Source of the DNA: Clostridia bacterium | Lineage (GTDB): Bacteria > Bacillota > Clostridia > Oscillospirales > UBA644 | NCBI GenBank assembly: GCA_017621705.1 | Contig: JAGASR010000014.1 | Span: forward strand, 62,001 to 126,000 | Direction of reading: 5' to 3' | DNA length: 64,000 bases | In this document: piece by piece, positions 1 to 12,822 of the stretch | Layout of the letters: every line of letters starts with the position of its first letter | Numbering within the stretch: the first letter of the stretch is position 1 | Notes under the pieces: model-generated | Seen by the model: only the letters and a program-made list of their open reading frames with translations | The model's database searches: none | What the model was told of the DNA's origin: nothing | Translations under genes and position numbers: made by a program

Positions 1-1409
1 TCTTCAACAGATGTTTCAATGTTTACAACGTATTTTTGTCTGTTGTTTTCATCTGCTTCAGCGTATTGGTCGAGCCATTCTCTCATGCTTTTACTACTGT
101 TTATGCTTATGTAAACATCGGTCAGAGCCTCGTATCGATAGTTATAAATAATACTGTTGTATGCATCAATAAAGTTTACAACATCTCTGTCATCAAAGAA
201 ATAATTTTTTCTGAGATATTCAATAATGTTTTGTTCTTCTTCATATCCCGGAAGGGGTTCATATATTTTATCAAGAAGGATTGCAGACATAGCAGGATCT
301 TTACAGTGCAACGGTATTCCCGTACAGAAAAGAGATCCGGTTATCGTTGCGCCGGTAAAGTTTTTATTGTCTCCGTGAGGACCTCTCGGAAAAGGAATAA
401 AGCCGAAGTTTGACATGTTGTAGGCTATCGAATCGTGGGTTCCCAAAAGCTCTGTAGAGCATACTATCGTCATAACTGACTTTCCGTCAATGAATGTTTG
501 TAACATATGATCCCACAGGTAGCCGCCGATGTCAACAAACGAGGAATAATCGCCAAATGACCAGTTCCACGCAGTATCCATTGCTTCAAAAGTTTTTTCG
601 GAATGGAGACCAAGCTGATACTCACCGTTTTCATCTCGAACTATAAAACCTTCTCCGTTTGACGATTGCATAGTTCTGAATAACCAATGTATACTTGTGA
701 AAAGCGCTGTTACTTCGTCACCTGCATCATTAACATGATTGTATACAGGCATAAGTTCTTCAAATTTATCCCATGTCCACTCATTTGTCTCAACAAACTC
801 TCTTGGGTCCGTTTGATTGAGGTATCTGATTATATCCTCATTTACAATCAGCGGACCATCCATTGAGTAATATTTAAGCATGGGCCAAGCATCCGGTATT
901 ACACCGAATATACCGCCATCCCAACAAAGTGCTTTTATTGTTTCTATATTTCCCCACTTTTCAGAATCTCTGTAATCGAGATAGTCCGTAAGTGCTGCAA
1001 GATCATGCATGAAACCGGCACGTATAGATCCGGCTAAACCTTGCGATGAGGTCTGAACTGCGTCTGCCGAGACCTGACCGGCATAAGTTTCATTTTGAAT
1101 CGTTTGGTTTATATCTCTATTTGTAACAATGGAGATTTCGACATTATATGTTTTCTCGACTTCATTAATTCTTTCTTTTGCAAGATCTGAAAACTCAGTA
1201 TTGATAAGATATCCAAGATAATCTTCACCCGTTGATTGATGAGAATTATTTAGAAAAAAACTGAAATTTGCACCCATAAAATCAGTTTCACTCAGCTCTG
1301 AACTGTATTCCGGCGCTATTTCTTCCTCTTTCAGTGTCGCGCATGCCGCAAATGATGTCATCATGCTGATAAGCAAAAAAATGGAAATCGTTCGTAATAT
1401 TTTTTTCAT
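1..1409 (-). CDS. Solute-binding-like lipoprotein, copy A (3' end cut by window)
   Basis: First of five tandem paralogues; the last few codons lie left of the window. Reading from the ATG at 1409, 469 codons are open without a stop or frameshift. The N-terminus is a type II signal peptide (MKK-, hydrophobic stretch, FAAC lipobox), so the protein should be anchored outside the membrane. The body shares the family blocks DPREFVE-EWTWDKFEELMPVYNH, KDPAMSAI, EPLPGYE, FFDDRDV and SKSMREWLDQ with copies B-E. The fold is probably a family 1-like extracellular solute-binding protein, and the ligand is unknown. No permease or ATPase gene is adjacent. The gene has its own promoter at 1449-1477. Family-level confidence is high, function low. 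Confidence 0.85.
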   Translation of the reverse strand, partial: MKKILRTISIFLLISMMTSFAACATLKEEEIAPEYSSELSETDFMGANFSFFLNNSHQSTGEDYLGYLINTEFSDLAKERINEVEKTYNVEISIVTNRDINQTIQNETYAGQVSADAVQTSSQGLAGSIRAGFMHDLAALTDYLDYRDSEKWGNIETIKALCWDGGIFGVIPDAWPMLKYYSMDGPLIVNEDIIRYLNQTDPREFVETNEWTWDKFEELMPVYNHVNDAGDEVTALFTSIHWLFRTMQSSNGEGFIVRDENGEYQLGLHSEKTFEAMDTAWNWSFGDYSSFVDIGGYLWDHMLQTFIDGKSVMTIVCSTELLGTHDSIAYNMSNFGFIPFPRGPHGDNKNFTGATITGSLFCTGIPLHCKDPAMSAILLDKIYEPLPGYEEEQNIIEYLRKNYFFDDRDVVNFIDAYNSIIYNYRYEALTDVYISINSSKSMREWLDQYAEADENNRQKYVVNIETSVE

Positions 1410-1448
1410 GGCAGACAAATATCCTTTCATTATTTCTTGTCTTACAAA

Positions 1449-1477
1449 ATTATATCATTTTTTTTTCTTTTTGTCAA
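1449..1477 (-). promoter_or_regulatory. Sigma-A-type promoter of lipoprotein copy A
   Basis: On the minus strand TTGACA (1472-1477) and TATAAT (1449-1454) are separated by exactly 17 bases. It lies about 40 bases upstream of the copy A start codon and downstream of the copy B terminator, so copy A is transcribed on its own. Confidence 0.85.
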
Positions 1478-1487
1478 TGCATTAAGA

Positions 1488-1520
1488 AACAAAGAACCGC
1501 AACAAGTGCGGTTCTTTGTT
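1488..1520 (-). terminator. Intrinsic terminator of lipoprotein copy B
   Basis: A 14-bp perfect inverted repeat (AACAAAGAACCGCA and its complement) with a 5-base loop lies just after the copy B stop codon. Confidence 0.8.
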
Positions 1521-1526
1521 GTATAA

Positions 1527-2954
1527 TTATTTTCCGAAAAGATCATCGATCGATGTTTCTATATTGACAGCGTATTTTACTCTGTTTGTTTCATCTGCTT
1601 CAGCGTATTGGTCAAGCCATTCTCTCATGCTCTTGCTGCTGTTAATGCTGATGTAAACATCTGTCAGACCTTCGTGTCTGTAGTTGTAGTAGATATTATT
1701 GTATGCGGCAATATAGTTCGTAACGTCTCTGTCATCAAAGAAGAAGTTCTTTCTGAGATAATCGATAACGTTCTTTTCTGTTTCGTATCCTGGAAGGGGT
1801 TCATATATAGCGTCGAGAATGATTGCAGACATAGCGGGATCTTTAGACGCCATTGGTATGGATGTGCAAAATCTTGTGCTTGTTATCGTGGAACCTAACC
1901 CGGTTTTGTTGCTTCCGTAAGGTCCTCTCGGGAACGGAATTACAGCGAAATTATCCATCTGGTATGCAATCGAGTTTTCCGAACCTAAAAGGTCTGTACC
2001 GTTCATGATAGTAAGAACTGATTTTCCATCGAGGAATGCCTGTAACATAGCGGTCCAGTTGTTATTTTGATCGATATAAACAAACGATGAATAGTCACCG
2101 AATGCCCAATCCCAACCCGTTGCCATTGCTTCAAATGTTTTATCCTCATGAAGACCGACTCTGTATTCACCGCTTTCATCTTGAACGATTATGCCTTCAC
2201 CGTTAGTTGTCTGCATTGTTCTGAATAACCAATGTACAGTAGTGTAGAGTGCTTTAACTTCATCTCCGGCATCGTTTATATGATTATAAACAGGCATGAG
2301 CTCTTCGAACTTATCCCAGGTCCATTCGTCTTTTTCAACAAATTCTCTCGGGTCGGTTTCATTAAGATAACTGATGATATTTTCATTGACTATTACAGGA
2401 CCGTCCATTGAACGGTATTTGAGAATCGGCCACGATGCAGGAATCACACCGAAAAGACAGCCGTCCCAAAACATCGGTTTAAGATTTTCGATGTTGCCCC
2501 ATTTTTCGCTGTCCGTGTAATCGATATACTCCGAAAGCTGTGTAAGATCATGAAGAAGACCGGCTCTTAAAATTCCGGATATTGCATTGCTTGCCGCTTG
2601 AACAGCATCTGCTGAAACAGCACCTGCATATGTTTCATTCTGAACAGTAGCTCCTATATCTTTGCCTGTGATAATATTTATTTTGACATCATATTTACTT
2701 TCAACTTCTTTTACCCGTTCCATCGCAAGATCGGCAAATTCGGTATCTATAACATATCCGAAGTAGTCTTCGCCTGTTGAATGTTCGCCGTTGCTTTGCA
2801 TAAATATAAAATCAGTACCCATGAAAGTTATTTCACCGAGTTCGGACTCATATTCAGGAACTATTTCTTCTTCTTTTTGTGTCGCGCAAGCCGCAAACGA
2901 CATCATCATGCTGATAATCAGAAAAATCGAGACTGTTCGCAAGTATTTTTTCAT
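1527..2954 (-). CDS. Solute-binding-like lipoprotein, copy B
   Basis: Second paralogue, 475 residues. The ATG at 2954 is preferred over an in-frame TTG nine bases upstream, because GGAGA lies 10 bases before the ATG. The signal peptide carries the lipobox-like MSFAAC, and the mature protein begins CATQKEEE. After an acidic linker comes FMGTDFIFMQ, then the family blocks WTWDKFEELMPVYNHIND, GDYSSFVYID, KDPAMSAIILDAIYEPLPGYE (read in parts) and SKSMREWLDQ. The family resembles ABC transporter substrate-binding proteins, but the cargo is unknown and no transporter genes are nearby. It is closest by eye to copies D and E, with B and D sharing the GTDLLGSENSIAYQMDNF region. Confidence 0.85.
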   Translation of the reverse strand: MKKYLRTVSIFLIISMMMSFAACATQKEEEIVPEYESELGEITFMGTDFIFMQSNGEHSTGEDYFGYVIDTEFADLAMERVKEVESKYDVKINIITGKDIGATVQNETYAGAVSADAVQAASNAISGILRAGLLHDLTQLSEYIDYTDSEKWGNIENLKPMFWDGCLFGVIPASWPILKYRSMDGPVIVNENIISYLNETDPREFVEKDEWTWDKFEELMPVYNHINDAGDEVKALYTTVHWLFRTMQTTNGEGIIVQDESGEYRVGLHEDKTFEAMATGWDWAFGDYSSFVYIDQNNNWTAMLQAFLDGKSVLTIMNGTDLLGSENSIAYQMDNFAVIPFPRGPYGSNKTGLGSTITSTRFCTSIPMASKDPAMSAIILDAIYEPLPGYETEKNVIDYLRKNFFFDDRDVTNYIAAYNNIYYNYRHEGLTDVYISINSSKSMREWLDQYAEADETNRVKYAVNIETSIDDLFGK

Positions 2955-3005
2955 GGTAAACAATTCTCCATCACATATTTGTTATAATTATTAATATTTG
3001 ATATA

Positions 3006-3034
3006 ATTGTATCATTTTTTTGTGTTTTTGTCAA
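3006..3034 (-). promoter_or_regulatory. Promoter of lipoprotein copy B
   Basis: TTGACA (3029-3034) and TACAAT (3006-3011) on the minus strand are 17 bases apart. The A-rich spacer resembles that of the copy A promoter, suggesting that gene and promoter were duplicated together. Confidence 0.82.
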
Positions 3035-3045
3035 TATGTTAAATA

Positions 3046-3077
3046 ACAAAAAACCGCAAATGCTTGCGGTTTTTTGT
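3046..3077 (-). terminator. Terminator of lipoprotein copy C
   Basis: Perfect 14-bp stem ACAAAAAACCGCAA with a 4-base loop and a T-run on the minus strand, five bases after the copy C stop. Confidence 0.8.
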
Positions 3078-3081
3078 ATAA

Positions 3082-4497
3082 TTATTCTCCGAAAAGTTCA
3101 TCAATGGTCGTTTCGATACTGATAACGTATTTCTGTCTGTTTGCTTCATTTGATTCGGAATACTGATCGAGCCATTCTCTCATGCTCTTATTGTCCGTAA
3201 GATTGATGTAAACGTCAGTAAGTCCCTCATGTCTGTAGTTGTAATAAACGTTGTTGAATGCGTTGATGAAGTTTGTAACGTCTCTGTCGTCAAAGAAATA
3301 ATTATTTCTGAGATAATCAATAATACTCTGTTCTTCTTCATATCCCGGAAGAGGAGAATATACGGCATCCAGAATTATTGCCGACATTGCAGGATCTTTA
3401 CTGAGCTGCGGTATTCCTGTAGAGAAGAGGGTGCCGGTTATTGTTGATCCTGGGTTCGTTTTATTGCTTCCGTGAGGACCTTTCGGGAAAGGAATAAAAG
3501 CAAAGTTCGACATATTATACGCTATTGAATCTGTCGATCCGAAAAATTCGGTAGCGTTTACAATAGTCAAAACAGATCTTCCGTCCAAGAAAGTCTGAAG
3601 CATATCTGTCCATTGATGGCCGTCGTCAATATCAACAAATGATGAATAATCTCCAAAAGCCCAGTTCCATGCGGTAGACAATGCTTCAAATGTCTTTTCG
3701 GAATAAAGACCAAGCTGATATTCACCGTTTTCGTCTTGAACGATAACACCTTCGCCGTTTGATGTCTGCATCGTTTTGCACAGCCAGTGATCACTGGAAT
3801 AAAGAGCGGTAACCTCATCTCCGGCATCGTTGATATGGCTGTATATAGGCATAAGCTCTTCAAATGTATCCCATGTCCATATATCTGCCTCAACAAGCTC
3901 TCTGGGATCGGTCTGATTAAGATATCTGATTATATCTTCGTTTGCAATCAGCGGGCCGTCTATAGAAAGATATTTAAGCATCGGCCATGCCGCGGGAATA
4001 ACACCGAAAATACCACCGTCCCAGCAGAGAGGCTTTATATTTTCAATATTTCCCCATTTTTGGGTGTCGGTGTAGTCAAGATAATCGGTAAGACCTGTAA
4101 GATCATACATAAATCCTGCTCTTATGCATCCTGCCAAACCTTGTGATGCGGTTTGTACGGCATCTGCGGATACTTGACCCGAATAAGTCTCGTTTTGAAT
4201 CGTTTGACCAATGTCTTTATTAGTAACGATATTTATTTTGACATTGTATTTCTTAGAAACTTCTTCAACTCTTTCTTTTGCAAGATCTGCAAATTCAGTG
4301 TCGTATAAGTAACCGAGATATTGTTCTCCTATTGAATGGCCGCTGTTATTTATTAAGAAAATAAATTCTTCACCCATAAAGTCAACTTTATCTATCTTGG
4401 ATGAGTATTCCGGTATAATTTCTTCTGTATCCTGAGAACAAGCACAAACCGAAAAAAGCAAGCAAGCCAATAGTATAAAAGAAACCATTCTTTTCAT
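3082..4497 (-). CDS. Solute-binding-like lipoprotein, copy C
   Basis: Third paralogue, 471 residues. The start at 4497 has AAAGGACAG upstream. The lipobox is atypical (FSVCACS), with the modified Cys probably the second one (VCAC). The body has the same blocks as its neighbours: DTFEELMPIYSHINDAGDEV, KDPAMSAIILDAVYSPLPGYE (read in parts), FFDDRDVTNFINAFNN and KSMREWLDQY. By eye it is closest to copy A (shared GYLYDTEFADLAKERV, GLAGCIRAGFMYDL and CWDGGIFGVIPAAWPMLKY regions). It is the only copy without an obvious TTGACA/TATAAT promoter directly upstream. It may depend on read-through of the copy D terminator or on a weak promoter. Confidence 0.85.
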   Translation of the reverse strand: MKRMVSFILLACLLFSVCACSQDTEEIIPEYSSKIDKVDFMGEEFIFLINNSGHSIGEQYLGYLYDTEFADLAKERVEEVSKKYNVKINIVTNKDIGQTIQNETYSGQVSADAVQTASQGLAGCIRAGFMYDLTGLTDYLDYTDTQKWGNIENIKPLCWDGGIFGVIPAAWPMLKYLSIDGPLIANEDIIRYLNQTDPRELVEADIWTWDTFEELMPIYSHINDAGDEVTALYSSDHWLCKTMQTSNGEGVIVQDENGEYQLGLYSEKTFEALSTAWNWAFGDYSSFVDIDDGHQWTDMLQTFLDGRSVLTIVNATEFFGSTDSIAYNMSNFAFIPFPKGPHGSNKTNPGSTITGTLFSTGIPQLSKDPAMSAIILDAVYSPLPGYEEEQSIIDYLRNNYFFDDRDVTNFINAFNNVYYNYRHEGLTDVYINLTDNKSMREWLDQYSESNEANRQKYVISIETTIDELFGE

Positions 4498-4572
4498 CTG
4501 AATTTACTGTCCTTTCTTGAATCTAATTTCTCATAGTGGATGAATAGACTGCGAATATCATATTTAAAGCAG

Positions 4573-4604
4573 AAGACCACCGATTGAGTTCAATCGGTGG
4601 TCTT
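4573..4604 (-). terminator. Terminator of lipoprotein copy D
   Basis: A 15-bp inverted repeat (AAGACCACCGATTGA) with a 2-base loop, between the copy D stop and the copy C leader. The T-run on the minus-strand side is poor (CTGCTTTAAA), so termination may be leaky and feed copy C. Confidence 0.7.
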
Positions 4605-4615
4605 TGTAATGTGAA

Positions 4616-6043
4616 TTATTTTCCGAGAATGTCGTCAATGGAGGTTTCAATATTGACTGCATACTCTACTCTGTTTGCTTCATCTGCTTCGGCAAACTGG
4701 TCGAGCCATTCTCTCATGCTTTTACTGCTGTTAATACCGATGTAAACGTCTGTAAGACCTTCGTGTCTGTAGTTATAAATAAGATTGTTGTAAGAATCAA
4801 TATAGTTCATGACGTCTCTGTCATCAAAGAAGAAGTTCTGTCTGAGATAACCGATCATGTCTTCCTCGGATTCGTATCCCGGAAGGGGTTCGTAGATTGC
4901 ATCAAGAATAATAGCGGACATTGCGGGGTCTTTACATGCGTAGGGGATTGCCGTACAGAATTTTGTATCGGTAATAGTCGTACCTGAACTTGTCTTGTTT
5001 GAACCTAAAGGTCCTCTCGGGAAGGGAACGACACCGAAGTTATCCATCTGGTATGCAATGGAGTTTTCGGAACCGAGAAGGTCTGTACCGTTCATGATGG
5101 TAAGAACGGATTTTTCATCGAGGAATGCCTGAAGCATGTTTGTCCAGTTATTGTTTGTATCGATATAAACAAACGATGAATAGTCACCGAATGCCCAGTC
5201 CCAAGCGGTTGCCATTGCTTCGAAAGTCTGCGCGGAATGAAGACCGAGCTGATATTCGCCGTTTTCATCCTGGAAAATAAAGTCCTCACCGTTAGTGGAC
5301 TGAATCGTTCTGAAAAGCCAGTGAACGGTCGTATAGATAGCTTTAACTTCATCACCCGCATCGTTGATATGGTTATAAATGGGCATGAGTTCTTCGAATT
5401 TATCCCAGGTCCATTCATCTTTTTCAACAAATTCTCTGGGGTCGGTCTGGTTGATGTTTCTGATAATATCTTCGTTAACGATTACGGGACCGTCCATCGA
5501 ACGGAATTTGAGCATCGGCCATGCCGCGGGTATAACACCGAAAAGAGCTCCGTCCCAGAACAGAGGCTTGAGGTTTTCAACGTTGCCCCATTTTTCTGAA
5601 TTGGTATAGTCGATGTAATCCGAAAGATTGGTAAGATCGTAAAGCATACCTGCTCTTAAAATACCCGCAAGACCGCCGCCGGAAGTCTGAACCGCATCTG
5701 CGGAAACAAGACCTGCGTATGTTTCGTTCTGAACTGTGGAACCGACATCTTTGCCTGTTTCGATTATAATATTAACGTCATATTTTGCGCCGACTTCTTT
5801 GACTCTCTGGAGTGCGAGGTCTGCAAATTCCGTGTTTACAACATAACCGAAATAATCTTCGCCTGTAGAATGTTCATCATTCTTCTGCATGAATTTGAAA
5901 TCTGCACCCATAAAGGTGACCTCTCCGAGGTCTGTGCTGTAATCGGGTACTATTTCTTCTTCTGCGGTTCCCGCGCATGCAACGAAAGACATCATGATGC
6001 ACAGAAGCAAAAGAACGGAAACAAAGCTCTTCATCTTTTTCAT
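4616..6043 (-). CDS. Solute-binding-like lipoprotein, copy D
   Basis: Fourth paralogue, 475 residues. The start at 6043 has AAAAGGAG about ten bases upstream. Signal peptide MKKMKSFVSVLLLLCIMMSF ends at VACA, with Cys25 as the likely lipid anchor. It carries all family blocks, including FMGADFKFMQKNDEHSTGED, WTWDKFEELMPIYNHIND, GDYSSFVYIDTNNNWTNMLQ, GTDLLGSENSIAYQMDNF, KDPAMSAI and SKSMREWLDQ. It is very similar to copy B over its whole length, which suggests recent duplication or gene conversion. It has its own promoter at 6086-6114. Probable surface-exposed ligand-binding lipoprotein; ligand unknown. Confidence 0.85.
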   Translation of the reverse strand: MKKMKSFVSVLLLLCIMMSFVACAGTAEEEIVPDYSTDLGEVTFMGADFKFMQKNDEHSTGEDYFGYVVNTEFADLALQRVKEVGAKYDVNIIIETGKDVGSTVQNETYAGLVSADAVQTSGGGLAGILRAGMLYDLTNLSDYIDYTNSEKWGNVENLKPLFWDGALFGVIPAAWPMLKFRSMDGPVIVNEDIIRNINQTDPREFVEKDEWTWDKFEELMPIYNHINDAGDEVKAIYTTVHWLFRTIQSTNGEDFIFQDENGEYQLGLHSAQTFEAMATAWDWAFGDYSSFVYIDTNNNWTNMLQAFLDEKSVLTIMNGTDLLGSENSIAYQMDNFGVVPFPRGPLGSNKTSSGTTITDTKFCTAIPYACKDPAMSAIILDAIYEPLPGYESEEDMIGYLRQNFFFDDRDVMNYIDSYNNLIYNYRHEGLTDVYIGINSSKSMREWLDQFAEADEANRVEYAVNIETSIDDILGK

Positions 6044-6085
6044 TGTTTTAAACTCCTTTTATTTTTTGAGTTTTATACTTTATAT

Positions 6086-6114
6086 ATTATAACGCTTTTT
6101 TCTTGAATTGTCAA
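6086..6114 (-). promoter_or_regulatory. Promoter of lipoprotein copy D
   Basis: TTGACA (6109-6114), a 17-base spacer and TATAAT (6086-6091) on the minus strand, upstream of copy D. Confidence 0.85.
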
Positions 6115-6126
6115 TAATTTTTTTAT

Positions 6127-6165
6127 AAAACGGAGACATTTTTTTATATATGCCTCCGTTTTTTT
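6127..6165 (-). terminator. Terminator of lipoprotein copy E
   Basis: Inverted AAAACGGAG / CTCCGTTTT arms flank an AT-rich loop, just downstream of the copy E stop. Confidence 0.65.
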
Positions 6166-6173
6166 GATTTGAT

Positions 6174-7601
6174 TTATTCTCCGAAAAGTTCGTCGATTGT
6201 GCTTTCGATGTTTACAACATATTCTGCTCTGTTTTTTTCATCTGCTTCCGCATACTGATCAAGCCATTCTCTCATACTTTTACTGCTGTTGATGCCGATA
6301 TAAACATCTGTCAGAGCTTCGTTTCTGTAATTGTAAACTATATTGTTAAATGCATCAACGAAGTTTACCACGTCTCTGTCATCAAAGAAATAATTGTGTC
6401 TGAGATATTCGATAATGCTTTCTTCGGTTTCGTATCCGGGCAGAGGTTCATATATAGCATTCAATACGATCGCCGACATAGCAGGGTCTTTGCTGAGTAA
6501 GGGGATAAATGTTCCGAATCTTACTTCTGTTATAGTTGTGCCGGACGTGGTATTATTGTTGCCGAAAGGTCCTCTCGGGAAGGGGACAACGCCGAAGTTT
6601 GCCATCTGGTACGCAATAGAGTTTTCAGCACCGACAAGATCTGTACCGTTCATAATCGTAAGAACGGATTTGTTGTCAAGGAATGCTTGGAGCATATTTT
6701 CCCAGACGTTGCTTGTATCAATATAAACAAACGATGCATAATCGCCGAAAGCCCAGTCCCAGGCTGGTGCCATTGCTTCGAAAGTCTTATCGGAATGCAG
6801 ACCAAGCTGATATTCGCCGTTTTCATCCCGGAAAACAAATCCCTCGCCGTTGGTGGACTGGATCGTTCTGAAAAGCCAGTGAACGGTTGTATAAAGCGCT
6901 TTAACTTCATCTCCAGCATTGTTTATATGATTATAGACAGGCATGAGTTCTTCGAGTTTGTCCCATGTCCATTCATCTTTTTCAACAAATTCTCTCGGGT
7001 CGGTTTCGTTGATGGATCTGATAAGATCTTCGTTTACTACCATCGGACCGTCCATCGAACGGTATTTATGGATCGGCCACGCCGCAGGCACAACTCCGTA
7101 AAGTCCTCCGTCCCAGAAAAAAGGCTTGAGAAGCTCTTCGTTTCCCCATTTTTCGGCATCGGTATAATTAATATAGTCACCAAGTTGTGTAATATCGTAT
7201 AAAAGACCTGCTCTTACTGTTCCGCCCATCTGTGTGGATTTCGCCTGAGCAGCGTCAACGGAGACCAGACCCGCATAAGTTTCATTCTGTATCGTTGACG
7301 GAATGTCTTTACCCGTTATTACGTTGACTTTTACGTTGAAATTGCTTTCAACTTCCTTTACTCTCTGAAGAGCAAGATCAGCAAATTCGGTATTCGCAAC
7401 GTATCCGAAATAATCCTCACCGGTGGTGTGCTCTTCATTTTGCTGCATGAATTTGAATTCGGCACCCATAAAGTCTATTTCTCCGATTTCGGATGAATAG
7501 TCTGGGATTATTTCTTCTTCCGGAGCCTGTGCGCAGGCGCTGAAAGAAAAAATCATGCAGGCCAACAGCAACAGAGAAAAAATTCTTTTATTGTTTTTCA
7601 T
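6174..7601 (-). CDS. Solute-binding-like lipoprotein, copy E
   Basis: Fifth and most upstream paralogue, 475 residues from the ATG at 7601 (MKNNKRIF). The open frame runs further upstream, but that part overlaps the promoter, so the long start is rejected. A TTG at 7613 close to AAAGGCGG is a possible alternative. The lipobox is SFSACA. It keeps the family blocks (FMGAEFKFMQQNEEH, WTWDKLEELMPVYNHINN, GDYASFVYID, EPLPGYETEE, FFDDRDVVNF, SKSMREWLDQ). It shares a 300-base intergenic region with the divergent biotin operon but has its own promoter. Confidence 0.85.
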   Translation of the reverse strand: MKNNKRIFSLLLLACMIFSFSACAQAPEEEIIPDYSSEIGEIDFMGAEFKFMQQNEEHTTGEDYFGYVANTEFADLALQRVKEVESNFNVKVNVITGKDIPSTIQNETYAGLVSVDAAQAKSTQMGGTVRAGLLYDITQLGDYINYTDAEKWGNEELLKPFFWDGGLYGVVPAAWPIHKYRSMDGPMVVNEDLIRSINETDPREFVEKDEWTWDKLEELMPVYNHINNAGDEVKALYTTVHWLFRTIQSTNGEGFVFRDENGEYQLGLHSDKTFEAMAPAWDWAFGDYASFVYIDTSNVWENMLQAFLDNKSVLTIMNGTDLVGAENSIAYQMANFGVVPFPRGPFGNNNTTSGTTITEVRFGTFIPLLSKDPAMSAIVLNAIYEPLPGYETEESIIEYLRHNYFFDDRDVVNFVDAFNNIVYNYRNEALTDVYIGINSSKSMREWLDQYAEADEKNRAEYVVNIESTIDELFGE

Positions 7602-7650: not shown

Positions 7651-7679
7651 AGTATAACATTGATAATATTTTTTGTCAA
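7651..7679 (-). promoter_or_regulatory. Promoter of lipoprotein copy E
   Basis: TTGACA (7674-7679) and TATACT (7651-7656) on the minus strand with a 17-base spacer. The rest of the 7602-7904 intergenic stretch is AT-rich and shows only this promoter and the divergent plus-strand one. Confidence 0.83.
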
Positions 7680-7904: not shown

Positions 7905-9299
7905 ATGGATCTGAAAGGAAGAACGGAAGAAATGCGTTCCGTCCGCGCAACGATCGAAGGATCTGCTAAATCTGCGGCTAGAAAACGCATCGAACTCCTG
8001 TTCGACGAAGGAACTTTCGTTGAAATCGGTGCATTCGTTAAACAGCGTCCTACTGAATTCGGTGCCGTTGATGCGGCTGCTGAAAGCGTTGTGACCGGTT
8101 ACGGTGCAGTCAACGGTGTTCTCGTTTTCGCTTTTTCTCAGGATGTGTCCGTGCTCAAGGGCGCTATCAGTGAGATGAATGCTGAAAAAATTTGTAATAT
8201 TGCGGAAATGGCTCGTAAAGCTCATGCTCCGCTCGTATCCATGCTCGACAGTTGCGGCGTACGTCTCCATGAAGGTATCGACGCACTCGCCGGATACGGT
8301 AAGATCATCGCAAAACTCAACTCTATTGCAGGGGAGATCATTCATGTCTCCGCAGTATTCGGTATCTGCGCAGGCGCAATGTCCTTTGTCCCCGCTATCG
8401 CGGATTATTCTGTAATGACTAAATCTGCTGAACTTTTCCTCTCCTCTCCCGACGTTGTTAAAGCACGTTTCGGCAATAATAACGCAGGTACCGCAGAGGA
8501 AGCTTACAAAAACGGCACTATCAGCGCAATCTGCGACTCTGACGAAGAAGCTGTCGCACAGATCAAAGAATTTATTTCTTTTGTTGCCGATATCCCCGTT
8601 ACTGAAGACGATATCAACCGTCTCACTCCCGAAATCGCTGATATCATTTCCCAGCCCGACTATGATGTTCGTAACGTTATCCGTTCTATCGCAGATGACG
8701 GTAAGGTTCTCGAGCTCAACGCAGGTTATGCCGAAAATATCGTAACCGCACTTATCAGCATCGATTGCTGTCCCGTAGGCGTTGTTGCAAATAACGGCGC
8801 TCTTACTTCCGCCGCTTCCGAAAAAGCTTCCAGATTTATTGCTTTCTGCGACAATTGCGGTCTTTCCGTTCTCACTCTTGTAAATACCGACGGTTTTGCT
8901 TGTGAAAACGATGAAAATATTGCAAACAGTTCTCTGCTCGTTTCCGCATATGTTACGGCAGAAGTTCCTAAAGTAACTCTTATCATCGGTAAAGCTTACG
9001 GTTCCGGATATATCTCCATGTGCTCCAAGCAGACCGGTGCAGATATCGTTTACGCTTATCCCTGCGCTGAGATCGCAACTCTTCCCGCAGAGACCGGCGC
9101 TGTCTTTATGTGCGCTCAGCAGATTGCGCAGACCGAAGGTGATCCCATCGAAGGCAGAGACGCTATCATCGCAAAATACAGAGAAACAATCGCTTCTCCG
9201 TTCGAGGCCGCAAAGAGAGGCCATGTTGACGATATCATCGATATCGAGACCACTCGTCAGCTAATCGCATCCTCTTTCGGTATGCTCGCCGATAAATAA
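7905..9299 (+). CDS. Acyl-CoA carboxyltransferase subunit (MmdA/12S-like)
   Basis: A 464-residue carboxyltransferase of the AccD/PccB/MmdA family. It moves CO2 between a short acyl-CoA (methylmalonyl-CoA/propionyl-CoA in known relatives) and carboxybiotin. Supporting regions are the N-terminal KSAARKRIELLFDEGTFVEI, AESVVTGYGAVNGV, LDSCGVRLHEGIDALAGYGK, GICAGAMSFVPAIADYSVM, and the C-terminal GKAYGSGYISMCSKQTGADI followed by the FEAAKRGHVDDIIDI block typical of the second crotonase-like half. It is somewhat shorter than the usual 500-520 residues. It is the first gene of a tight five-gene operon, start chosen from GGAGG at proper spacing. Codon use is strongly biased, implying high expression. 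The acyl-CoA substrate cannot be fixed from sequence. Confidence 0.88.
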   Translation: MDLKGRTEEMRSVRATIEGSAKSAARKRIELLFDEGTFVEIGAFVKQRPTEFGAVDAAAESVVTGYGAVNGVLVFAFSQDVSVLKGAISEMNAEKICNIAEMARKAHAPLVSMLDSCGVRLHEGIDALAGYGKIIAKLNSIAGEIIHVSAVFGICAGAMSFVPAIADYSVMTKSAELFLSSPDVVKARFGNNNAGTAEEAYKNGTISAICDSDEEAVAQIKEFISFVADIPVTEDDINRLTPEIADIISQPDYDVRNVIRSIADDGKVLELNAGYAENIVTALISIDCCPVGVVANNGALTSAASEKASRFIAFCDNCGLSVLTLVNTDGFACENDENIANSSLLVSAYVTAEVPKVTLIIGKAYGSGYISMCSKQTGADIVYAYPCAEIATLPAETGAVFMCAQQIAQTEGDPIEGRDAIIAKYRETIASPFEAAKRGHVDDIIDIETTRQLIASSFGMLADK

Positions 9300-9313
9300 G
9301 GGGAGGGGACAAT

Positions 9314-9742
9314 ATGCGCAGTTTCCTTTCTCTTACTGAAGAAATTGTTGAAAATTCCGAAGAAATTGTCGAAAAAGTCGAAGAAGCAGTCGTAAACGAT
9401 ATTGCCGCTGTTCCCGAAGGTTTTTTTGATAAACTTATGTACGGTCTGAACGTTTCCATTATAGGTATCATAACGGTCTTTGCCGTTCTCGCGCTTATAA
9501 TGGGTGTTCTTTACCTCTTCCGTCTGTATTTTTATGATCTTCCCAATAAGAAAAAGGCTGAAGAATCTCAGCCCAAAGCAGCTCCTGCTCCTGCAGCGGT
9601 GAAGACAGCTGCTCCCGTTACCGCTGTTGCTTCCGAAGAGGACGAGCTCGTTCCCGTTGTCATCGCAGCCGCTGTAGCCGCTTATATGGAAACAAATGCA
9701 CCGAAATCCAAATACAGGATCCGTTCCTTTAAAAGAATATAA
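9314..9742 (+). CDS. Small membrane subunit of Na+-pumping decarboxylase (OadG family)
   Basis: 142 residues: an acidic N-terminal extension (about 1-35), one transmembrane helix near 45-68 (GLNVSIIGIITVFAVLALIM), an Ala/Pro/Lys-rich linker and a short C-terminal segment ending SKYRIRSFKRI. This is the layout of OadG/MmdD subunits, which hold the peripheral carboxyltransferase and biotin carrier on the membrane beta subunit. The C-terminal VPVVIAAAVAAYM motif is common in this family. GGGGAGG lies upstream of the ATG. Its position between the carboxyltransferase and the biotin carrier supports the call. The initial acidic stretch (EEIVENSEEIVEKVEE) is unusual. Confidence 0.85.
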   Translation: MRSFLSLTEEIVENSEEIVEKVEEAVVNDIAAVPEGFFDKLMYGLNVSIIGIITVFAVLALIMGVLYLFRLYFYDLPNKKKAEESQPKAAPAPAAVKTAAPVTAVASEEDELVPVVIAAAVAAYMETNAPKSKYRIRSFKRI

Positions 9743-9759
9743 AAGGAGATTAATCTGAA

Positions 9760-10164
9760 ATGAGAAAATTTAACATAACCGTTAACGGTAAAACATATGA
9801 AGTCATCGTAGACGAAGTAGGCGGCGCTCCCGCAGCATCCGCACCGGTTGCTTCTGCTCCTGCTGTATCTGCCCCCGCAGCAGCACCTGCTCCTGTTGCA
9901 GCAGCTCCCGCAGCTCCTGCAGCACCTGCTCCCGTAGCAGTTCCCACCGAAGGTACTACCATCTCCGCACCGATGCCCGGTACCATCCTTAAAGTCAATG
10001 TTGAAAAAGGCGCTTCTGTTAAGAAAGGCGATGTTCTCGTCGTTCTCGAAGCTATGAAAATGGAAAACGATATTCAGGCTCCCGTTGACGGCACTATTAT
10101 CGCTGTTCAGACTTCCAAGGGCGCTTCTGTTGATACCGGCGCTCCTCTCGTAACTATTGGTTAA
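9760..10164 (+). CDS. Biotin carboxyl carrier protein
   Basis: 134 residues: a short N-terminal beta segment (KFNITVNGKTYEVIVDEVGG), a long Ala/Pro-rich flexible linker (about 24-62) and a C-terminal biotinyl domain. The biotin attachment motif EAMKMEND places the biotinylated lysine at residue 100. It shuttles CO2 between the carboxyltransferases of this operon and the membrane pump. The linker is encoded by repetitive GCT/GCA/CCC codons. AAAGGAG precedes the ATG. No biotin carboxylase gene is present, as expected for a decarboxylase or transcarboxylase rather than an ATP-driven carboxylase. Confidence 0.93.
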   Translation: MRKFNITVNGKTYEVIVDEVGGAPAASAPVASAPAVSAPAAAPAPVAAAPAAPAAPAPVAVPTEGTTISAPMPGTILKVNVEKGASVKKGDVLVVLEAMKMENDIQAPVDGTIIAVQTSKGASVDTGAPLVTIG

Positions 10165-10185
10165 CGAAAGGTACAGGAAAACGAC

Positions 10186-11403
10186 ATGAATATATTTCAA
10201 GTAATTTCGGATATCGTCTCGAATTCCGGATTTGCGCGCCTTTTCCAGATCGGAATCGGCCCCGAAGGAATCGTAAACGGCGAGATCATTATGATAGCCG
10301 TGTCGTGTGTGCTTATTTATTTAGCTATCGGCAAAGGCTTTGAACCTCTTCTTCTCCTTCCGATCGCGTTTGGTATGCTTCTTGCAAATCTTCCTATCTC
10401 CGGTCTTATGCATACGGAATATTTCCTTGATCCTGCCTACCTAACGGCGGACGGTAATCTGGATATACCAATGATACTGACTAAAGGCGGTCTTTTCGAT
10501 ATCCTTTATCTCGGTGTAAAATGCGGTATATATCCTCCGCTTATCTTCCTTGGCGTCGGCGCTATGACCGACTTCGGACCCCTGATCGCAAACCCCAAGA
10601 GTATTCTCCTCGGCGCTGCGGCTCAGATCGGTATATTCTTTACCTTTGTTGTCGCTCTCTTCCTTGGATTTGACGCTCTTGAAGCTGCTTCCATCGGTAT
10701 TATCGGCGGCGCAGACGGTCCCACCGCTATTCTCGTAACCAAAACTCTTGCTCCTCATCTTCTTGCGGCTATCGCAGTTGCTGCATATTCCTATATGGCG
10801 CTCGTTCCCATTATTCAACCTCCCATCATGAGAGCTCTTACAACTAAAAAGGAACGTTCCGTCGTTATGGATCAGCTCCGTCCCGTTTCCAAGAAGGAAA
10901 AGATCCTCTTCCCGATCGTTGTTGCGGCAATTGTTATTCTTATCCTTCCCGACTCCGCACCCCTTATCGGTATGCTTATGCTCGGTAACCTCTTCCGCGA
11001 ATGCGGTGTTACTGATCGTTTGAGCAAGACCGCTCAGAACGAACTTTGTAACATCGTTACTATCGCCCTCGGTCTTACCGTAGGTGCAACAGCAAGTGCA
11101 AGCAACTTCCTCCGCCTCGAAACCATTTCCATCATTATTCTCGGCCTTATTGCGTTTAGTATTGCCTCCGCTACAGGTGTACTCCTCGGTAAACTTATGT
11201 ATGTTCTTACCGGCGGCAAGGTCAACCCCCTCATCGGTTCTGCAGGCGTTTCCGCAGTTCCTATGGCTGCACGTGTTTCCAATACCGTAGGTCAGAAAGA
11301 AGTTCCCGGTAACTTCCTTCTTATGCACGCTATGGGTCCCAACGTTGCCGGCGTTATCGGTTCAGCCGTTGCCGCAGGCGTATTCCTTACATTGTTCAAA
11401 TAA
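10186..11403 (+). CDS. Na+-translocating decarboxylase beta subunit (OadB/MmdB/GcdB)
   Basis: A 405-residue polytopic membrane protein that decarboxylates carboxybiotin and exports Na+. Family hallmarks are the N-terminal [40 protein letters not shown], the conserved [11 protein letters not shown] motif containing the essential Asp, [26 protein letters not shown] and the C-terminal [10 protein letters not shown] and [11 protein letters not shown]. Length matches the family (about 370-430). It lies 21 bases after the biotin carrier gene. The three enzymes oxaloacetate, methylmalonyl-CoA and glutaconyl-CoA decarboxylase all use this subunit, so it does not decide the substrate. Confidence 0.95.
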
Positions 11404-11418
11404 GGAGATATATCAGAA

Positions 11419-12822
11419 ATGACCAATAATAATCCCGTTAAAATAACTGAAACCATTCTGCGTGACGCGCACCAGTCTCTTATCGCCACCAGAATGACTA
11501 TCGATGAGATCTTACCTTCTCTCGAAATGCTCGACGCTGTCGGCTATCACGCTCTTGAAGCATGGGGCGGCGCTACTTTCGACTCCTGTCTCCGTTTCCT
11601 TAATGAAGACCCATGGGAAAGACTCCGCAAGATCCGTGACGGCGTTAAAAACACCAAGCTTCAGATGCTCTTCCGCGGTCAGAATATCCTCGGTTACAGA
11701 CATTATTCCGATGACGTTGTAGAGTACTTCGTTCAGAAATCTCTTGCTAACGGTATCGATATCATCAGAATTTTTGACGCTCTCAACGACCCCAGAAACC
11801 TTGATACCGCTGTTAAAGCAACCATCAAAGAAGGCGGTCACGTTCAGGCGGCTTTCTCTTACACCATCAGCCCTGTTCATAATACCCAGTCTTTCGTTGA
11901 TTTTGCGAAAAATATGGAAGAACGCGGCGCTAACTCTATCTGCATCAAAGACATGGCAGGTCTTCTTACTCCCTACAACGCTTACGAACTCGTCAAAGCG
12001 CTCAAAGAGAACGTCAAGATCCCCATCGAACTTCATACTCACTGCACCGCAGGTATTGCTGAAATGACATACCTCAAGGCGATCGAAGCAGGTGTCGATA
12101 TCGTTGATACCGCGCTTTCTCCTCTCTCCGGCGGTACTTCTCAGCCCTCTACCGAATCTATCGTTGCAACTCTCGATAACTGCTCCAGAAGAACCGGTCT
12201 CGACCTCGATAAACTCAACGAAGCTAGAAAATATTTCATGCCTCTCCGCGAAAAGTATCTCGCTTCCGGTCTTCTTAATACAAAAGTTCTCGCAGTTGAC
12301 GTTAACACTCTTCTCTATCAGGTTCCCGGCGGAATGCTCTCCAACCTCGTTTCCCAGCTCAAACAGGCAGGTAAAGAGGACAAATTCGAAGAAGTTCTCC
12401 AGGAAGTTCCCCGCGTAAGAGAAGATGCAGGCTTCCCGCCGCTCGTAACTCCTTCTTCTCAGATCGTCGGTACTCAGGCAGTATTTAACGTACTTTTCGG
12501 TCGTTATAAGAACGTTTCCAAAGAATTCAAAGCTCTTGTTCGCGGCGAATACGGTAAAACTCCCGTTCCTATCAAGCCCGAATTTGTAAAGCAGATCATC
12601 GGTGACGAAAAGCAGATCACTTGCCGTCCCGCAGATCTTATCAAACCTGAGCTTGACAGCCTCCGTGAAGAAATGCGCGAATACTACGAACAGGAAGAAG
12701 ACGTACTCAGCTACGCTCTCTTCGATCAGGTCGCAACCAAATTCTTCAAAGCTCGTCAGAGTGAAAAATACGGCGTAGACAATACCCACTCCGATAAAAA
12801 AGATATGGTTCATCCCGTATAA
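11419..12822 (+). CDS. Pyruvate/oxaloacetate carboxyltransferase (5S / OadA catalytic domain)
   Basis: 467 residues with the DRE-TIM carboxyltransferase barrel and the PYC/OADA conserved domain, but no C-terminal biotin domain, so it must use the separate carrier at 9760. Recognisable sites are TILRDAHQSL (metal Asp), EAWGGATFD, MLFRGQN, ICIKDMAG (the lysine carbamylated in relatives), ELHTHCTAG (metal His pair), ALSPLSGGTSQPS and PGGMLSNL. This corresponds to the 5S subunit of transcarboxylase or OadA/PycB without carrier. It is the last gene of the operon, followed by a strong terminator. Having both a 12S-like and a 5S-like subunit with one carrier and one Na+ pump is the notable point. 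Confidence 0.93.
   Translation: MTNNNPVKITETILRDAHQSLIATRMTIDEILPSLEMLDAVGYHALEAWGGATFDSCLRFLNEDPWERLRKIRDGVKNTKLQMLFRGQNILGYRHYSDDVVEYFVQKSLANGIDIIRIFDALNDPRNLDTAVKATIKEGGHVQAAFSYTISPVHNTQSFVDFAKNMEERGANSICIKDMAGLLTPYNAYELVKALKENVKIPIELHTHCTAGIAEMTYLKAIEAGVDIVDTALSPLSGGTSQPSTESIVATLDNCSRRTGLDLDKLNEARKYFMPLREKYLASGLLNTKVLAVDVNTLLYQVPGGMLSNLVSQLKQAGKEDKFEEVLQEVPRVREDAGFPPLVTPSSQIVGTQAVFNVLFGRYKNVSKEFKALVRGEYGKTPVPIKPEFVKQIIGDEKQITCRPADLIKPELDSLREEMREYYEQEEDVLSYALFDQVATKFFKARQSEKYGVDNTHSDKKDMVHPV

Follow-up and report, generated by a model that had tools for sequence, protein, structure and literature searches.

Five tandem genes belong to a large family of orphan solute-binding lipoproteins that is specific to one genus of Clostridia

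Results

Five intact lipoprotein genes lie head-to-tail at the locus

The window analysed here is a stretch of 64,000 nucleotides from the genome of a Clostridia bacterium, and its left end is occupied by five intact open reading frames arranged head-to-tail on the minus strand (Table 1). Their products are 62-78% identical to one another, B and D being the top pair (78%) and the other copies standing at 62-73% identity to copy A, and a lipobox-type N-terminus is common to all five. A sequence-only reading of the window, which had described five tandem genes for solute-binding-like lipoproteins, was thus right as to the genes themselves. The 3' end of copy E is found 13 bases beyond the left window edge (genome position C42:61988), and this protein has 480 aa if counted from the longest start in the whole contig.

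Table 1. Genes and putative transcription signals of the array (window coordinates)
Feature	Position	Strand	Remarks
Copy A	6174..7601	-	SBP-like lipoprotein, 475 aa, lipobox Cys23
Copy B	4616..6043	-	SBP-like lipoprotein, 475 aa, lipobox Cys23; AlphaFold model, MBP fold
Copy C	3082..4497	-	SBP-like lipoprotein, 471 aa, lipobox Cys20
Copy D	1527..2954	-	SBP-like lipoprotein, 475 aa
Copy E	1..1430	-	SBP-like lipoprotein; start more likely ATG 1409
Promoter, copy A	7651..7679	-	TTGACA-17-TATACT, TG before -10; 11/12
Promoter, copy B	6086..6114	-	TTGACA-17-TATAAT; 12/12
Promoter, copy D	3006..3034	-	TTGACA-17-TACAAT, TG before -10; 11/12
Promoter, copy E	1449..1477	-	TTGACA-17-TATAAT, TG before -10; 12/12
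Hairpin 3' of copy A	6127..6162	-	T-rich tail
Hairpin 3' of copy B	4569..4606	-	strong; poor T run, weak as intrinsic terminator
Terminator hairpin 3' of copy C	3046..3077	-	14-pair stem; scan match listed on + strand
Terminator hairpin 3' of copy D	1489..1519	-	

The four clear promoters with 17-base spacers that had been proposed from the letters were all recovered, and those of A, B, D and E are near-perfect sigma-A-type sequences. They are not a product of chance, as a promoter scoring at least 11/12 is present within 220 bases in 30 of the 64 paralogs of this genome (described below), against about 0.2 in shuffles. Upstream of copy C, on the other hand, the promoter scan found nothing at or above 10/12. 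Every gap between array copies contains a hairpin, but in the B-C gap the T run is poor, and copy C may therefore be transcribed by read-through from B. Separate transcription, which had been claimed for all five copies, is thus supported by promoters for four of them; terminator hairpins follow C and D, and the hairpin after B is weak as an intrinsic terminator. No riboswitch or other known RNA was found in the array.

The left flank, outside the window, consists of dpaA and dpaB (Pfam: DpaA_N, 8e-26; Flavoprotein, 7e-29) and a gene for a P-type cation ATPase, and the right flank (window positions 7905-12822, plus strand) is an operon for a biotin-dependent decarboxylase of the sodium-pump type, containing Carboxyl_trans, OadG-like, biotin carrier (Biotin_lipoyl), OAD_beta and PYC_OADA/HMGL genes. 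Neither flank has an ABC-importer permease or ATPase gene adjoining the array, in agreement with the earlier statement that no transporter stands beside it. A transporter operon immediately left of the window, just beyond its edge, was considered as well, and reading of the left flank rules it out. The dpaA and dpaB genes (dipicolinate synthase; genome C42:60484-61934) lie directly left of the window, and their presence suggests that the organism is an endospore former.

The array belongs to a family of about 65 members

The scale of the five-gene set had been underestimated: the genes are real, but they are only five members of a family of about 65. In the window's own genome (G000, 2.63 Mb) we found 64 full-length paralogs, each with an intact frame and a lipobox cysteine, which fall into 24 clusters of 1 to 8 genes and occupy about 84 kb, or 3% of the assembly. 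A profile built from these paralogs gave 66 matches in the same genome, 43-64 matches in each of seven other genomes of the genus, and only 2-7 in each of ten genomes that represent six sister genera within this bacterial family. The array is thus a local cluster within a large set of orphan lipoproteins of the carbohydrate-type solute-binding protein (SBP) kind that is specific to the genus. Two small genomes placed in the genus, 57-61% complete, have five and one family genes, and so the expansion may be restricted to part of the genus. An order-wide search, in which eight candidates per genome were scored and which therefore yields no counts, showed that scores fall sharply outside the family. 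When genome contigs were searched with a single protein, one close relative only was found, in Oscillospiraceae bacterium SIG516 (SVMP01000039.1).

The fold is that of maltose-binding protein, and candidate ligand loops vary

Solute-binding-like character, first proposed from the sequence, was borne out by profile searches and structure prediction. A profile search of the PDB with the 64 paralogs returned sugar SBPs first, among them 6rjy (an arabino-oligosaccharide-binding protein; 1.3e-14) and 8art (a maltose-binding protein; 9e-10). The AlphaFold model of copy B (pLDDT 91, pTM 0.85) has a bilobed fold like that of maltose-binding protein (MBP), and Foldseek matched this model to MBP throughout (E about 1e-15, TM-score by query 0.5-0.6). 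Pfam detected the family less readily: at E <= 0.1, 21 of the 64 members match SBP_bac_1 (best 2.8e-16) and 15 match SBP_bac_8, and only D among the window copies has a match, which at an E-value of 0.018 does not reach the cut-off. The Pfam scan of the 64 gave only SBP_bac_1/8 and chance matches, hence no TctC/Bug-type receptor, and no SusD profile was matched, the fold search pointing to MBP instead.

Three loops of copy B (53-66, 117-128 and 312-326) that are equivalent to ligand contacts of MBP, as judged from sequence alignment and what is established for MBP rather than from coordinates, are among the most variable parts of the family (88-94th percentile). The segments MNGTDLL/V and TTVHWLFRT are common to A, B and D. 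In the putative cleft segments these three copies are similar while C and E depart from them, and most copies have a different loop at 120-124. It is plausible on these alignments that the array covers at least two ligand classes.

Probable origin of the array by tandem duplication within a single branch

In three related genomes (G004, G005, G008) the site next to this decarboxylase operon has a single copy, against five in G000. An array of at least four copies adjoins dpaAB in G002, and one of them is the ortholog of copy D, to which it is 91% identical. Such a distribution indicates that tandem duplication enlarged a single locus within one lineage, and hence that the array arose locally. 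Between copies, dN/dS is about 0.1 and synonymous sites are near saturation, from which it follows that the duplicates are old and have been kept under purifying selection; for the pair of copy D and its G002 ortholog, dN/dS is 0.22. We also observed that dpaA and dpaB sit between the array and the P-type ATPase gene, and that this ATPase gene adjoins the single copy in related species.

Genes for glycan and sugar use adjoin the family clusters

Glycosidase genes of families GH4, GH18, GH38, GH95, GH106 (twice), GH130 and GH141 adjoin family clusters, as do two sulfatase, two ThuA, PIG-L deacetylase, aldose epimerase and MocA dehydrogenase genes. Two of the sugar-catabolism classes are about threefold over-represented within 5 kb of a family gene, against a background of 9.4%: MocA (6 of 20, p = 0.008) and xylose-isomerase-like genes (6 of 22, p = 0.014). 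In three species, fucose-isomerase and class II aldolase genes have family genes between them (G000 C22, G005 L100, G008 L098). This neighbourhood of glycosidase, sulfatase, fucose-isomerase and MocA genes points to sugars or glycans as ligands of the family; the adjoining GH130 and other enzymes give a context and not the ligand. The fucose-isomerase/aldolase locus of G000 (C22:56118-66356) is a conserved sugar-use locus in which the orphan receptors are the sole transport-like genes.

Permeases are few and did not expand with the receptors

The genome of the window contains 14 PF00528 permease domains, and none of these is found at a distance of 5 kb or less from a paralog. A search of related genomes for co-occurring transporters, as proposed with the sequence-only reading, showed no expansion of PF00528 alongside the family: four further genomes of the genus have 8-11 domains and the sister genera 7-12, so the permeases have not co-expanded with the receptors. 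By reading and Pfam, the G000 permeases examined belong to Pot, Pst and Opp systems, CUT1-like pairs and a MalFG-like pair.

The MalFG-like permease pair (C42:17116-20255) has its own SBP. The C21 cluster (C21:104014-116148), a possible candidate for a shared importer, contains two CUT1-like permease pairs together with genes for an NHL protein, a DUF5696 protein and a protein of 960 aa that includes an SBP_bac_1 domain; one permease set (C21:104014-108827) has its own SBP partner, and the other (C21:111158-116148) lies alongside the DUF5696 protein, a 1008-aa lipoprotein. That CUT1-like permeases are already paired in this way counts against a shared importer, as does the lack of a direct link from the family to any permease. 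Four-permease sets resembling the C21 cluster occur in genus and sister genomes.

Nine genomes of the genus and sister genera have exactly one OB_MalK ATPase each, and sharing of the ATPase between importers is therefore likely. None was found in the G000 assembly (96% complete), which again counts against the shared-importer reading and may reflect either an assembly gap or a real loss. GPH symporters are present but few.

Several candidate partners were rejected. The genus genomes have 2-3 BPD_transp_2 permeases each, and in G000 an ABC operon of this nucleoside/BMP type (C24:17488-22431) lies between family groups of five and two genes; however, the single pair of this kind elsewhere in the genus lies outside the family clusters, among the places listed, and BPD_transp_2 permeases use a receptor of a different fold class. 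The nearest conserved permease pair, on C7, was considered as a sugar hub and proved by reading to be a PotABCD-type polyamine system with an ATPase, two permeases and a PotD-like SBP. A MalK-like ATPase gene lies about 5 kb downstream of a copy of the window subfamily in G005 and G009, and we treat this linkage as chance because this ATPase locus is also present in G004 and G008, where the copy is absent. Finally, the permease located 3.3 kb from a family gene in G013 is part of a divergently oriented operon that encodes an SBP-like lipoprotein of its own.

Discussion

Receptors for many glycans and few importers

With moderate confidence, we regard the family as orphan MBP-fold lipoproteins for the capture of glycans or oligosaccharides, diversified by tandem duplication and probably serving few shared importers. 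Among the ideas offered earlier, the one in which the copies bind alternative ligands on behalf of a common, distant transporter is still the best, and it gains weight from the genome-wide counts. In this scenario, the lipid-anchored members would sit on the outside of the membrane, each capturing a different oligosaccharide freed from complex glycans at the cell surface. Ligand-loaded members would dock on very few shared CUT1-type permeases powered by a single MalK/MsmK-like ATPase, and separate promoters would let the cell produce each receptor in the presence of its own glycan. Duplication would diversify the receptors while the importer stays constant. A diversified set of receptors with shared importers is the most economical explanation, because the proteins have kept the fold of a small-ligand receptor, sugar-catabolism genes surround them, and there are few importers. 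A stricter form can be put forward more tentatively, namely a Gram-positive strategy of glycan foraging in which about 60 paralogous MBP-like lipoproteins, each with its own promoter and in many cases next to its own gene for a glycosidase or for sugar catabolism, would all feed one or two permease pairs and one ATPase, the substrate range evolving by receptor duplication alone.

The main rival is surface capture without transport, in which the proteins are no longer transport receptors but hold glycans or glycan-degrading enzymes at the surface, much as SusD-type surface glycan binders do, while monosaccharides enter otherwise. On one hand, the orphan state of the family in every genome examined, sister genera included, would fit this well, as would the position of the 2-7 sister-genus copies, whose neighbours are mostly housekeeping or catabolic genes instead of sugar transporters, the clusters among glycosidase and sulfatase genes, the lack of permease co-expansion and the existence of GPH-type symporters. 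On the other hand, a bilobed transport-receptor fold with diversity in the cleft loops looks like retained binding of small ligands, and the protein of about 470 aa carries no added domain, repeat or carbohydrate-binding module (CBM); we thus consider this rival less likely than the main reading. The receptor or adhesin role suggested earlier also keeps some probability.

Orphan SBPs have been proposed as sensors for the expansion in Rhodoplanes (PMC5994714), and separate promoters would suit receptors that signal their ligand to a kinase, chemoreceptor or anti-sigma system. Yet, in the top 25 of 160 families, no histidine kinase or chemoreceptor family is among those matched by at least two of the 131 neighbouring proteins, which makes a sensory role improbable. 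There is similarly little to recommend the idea that the copies bind the same ligand and that the extra ones are neutral or raise the amount of protein. The single copy at the same locus in G004, G005 and G008 against five in G000, and the two segments shared by A, B and D, are what one would expect of such dosage or drift, but the age of the duplicates, their maintenance by purifying selection, the divergence of C and E in the proposed cleft segments, the variable 120-124 loop and the intactness of all 64 paralogs are not.

If the reading of capture receptors with shared importers is right, gut bacteria of a common type depart extensively from the rule of one receptor per transporter, and it becomes testable whether one importer accepts dozens of receptors. 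Automated labels of the type "sugar ABC transporter substrate-binding protein" would overstate the number of transporters in such genomes, and a glycan-use locus would be marked by a receptor and an adjoining glycosidase, not by a permease. The expansion probably allows many plant or host glycans to be recognized with very few importers.

Relation to known systems

We found no description of an ABC-type orphan receptor expansion in Clostridia in the open-licence papers searched. The closest precedent is that of the Bug/TTT solute-binding proteins, over-represented in Bordetella, Cupriavidus and Rhodoplanes (PMC5994714, PMC11452294), with 181 in B. bronchiseptica and 434 in Rhodoplanes sp. Z2-YC6860, and with at most four membrane components for them in Bordetella (PMC5994714). 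Theirs is likewise a lineage-specific explosion grown by duplication, with few membrane components and mostly orphan receptors, and a comparable excess is seen here (about 65 receptors against 14 PF00528 domains). Since such expansions exist, the Clostridia case is not without precedent. The Bug/TTT proteins, however, are receptors of the TctC/Bug type that serve secondary TTT transporters in the periplasm of Proteobacteria, whereas the present family is MBP-like, ABC-type and lipid-anchored, and has glycan-degradation neighbours in a Gram-positive lineage.

The multitask ATPases MsmK and MsmX serve several sugar importers (PMC7658222, PMC3302838), and the single OB_MalK-type ATPase per genome in the genus and sister genera resembles them. 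In the MsmK/MsmX systems, though, the pairing of SBP and permease is kept and the ATPase alone is shared, while the Clostridia family would share permeases too. The CUT1 SBPs (SBP_bac_1/SBP_bac_8; 6rjy, MBP) are alike in fold, length class, lipobox and best profile matches; the family described here differs from them in having no permease genes alongside, in lying mostly under Pfam detection and in its roughly 65 copies.
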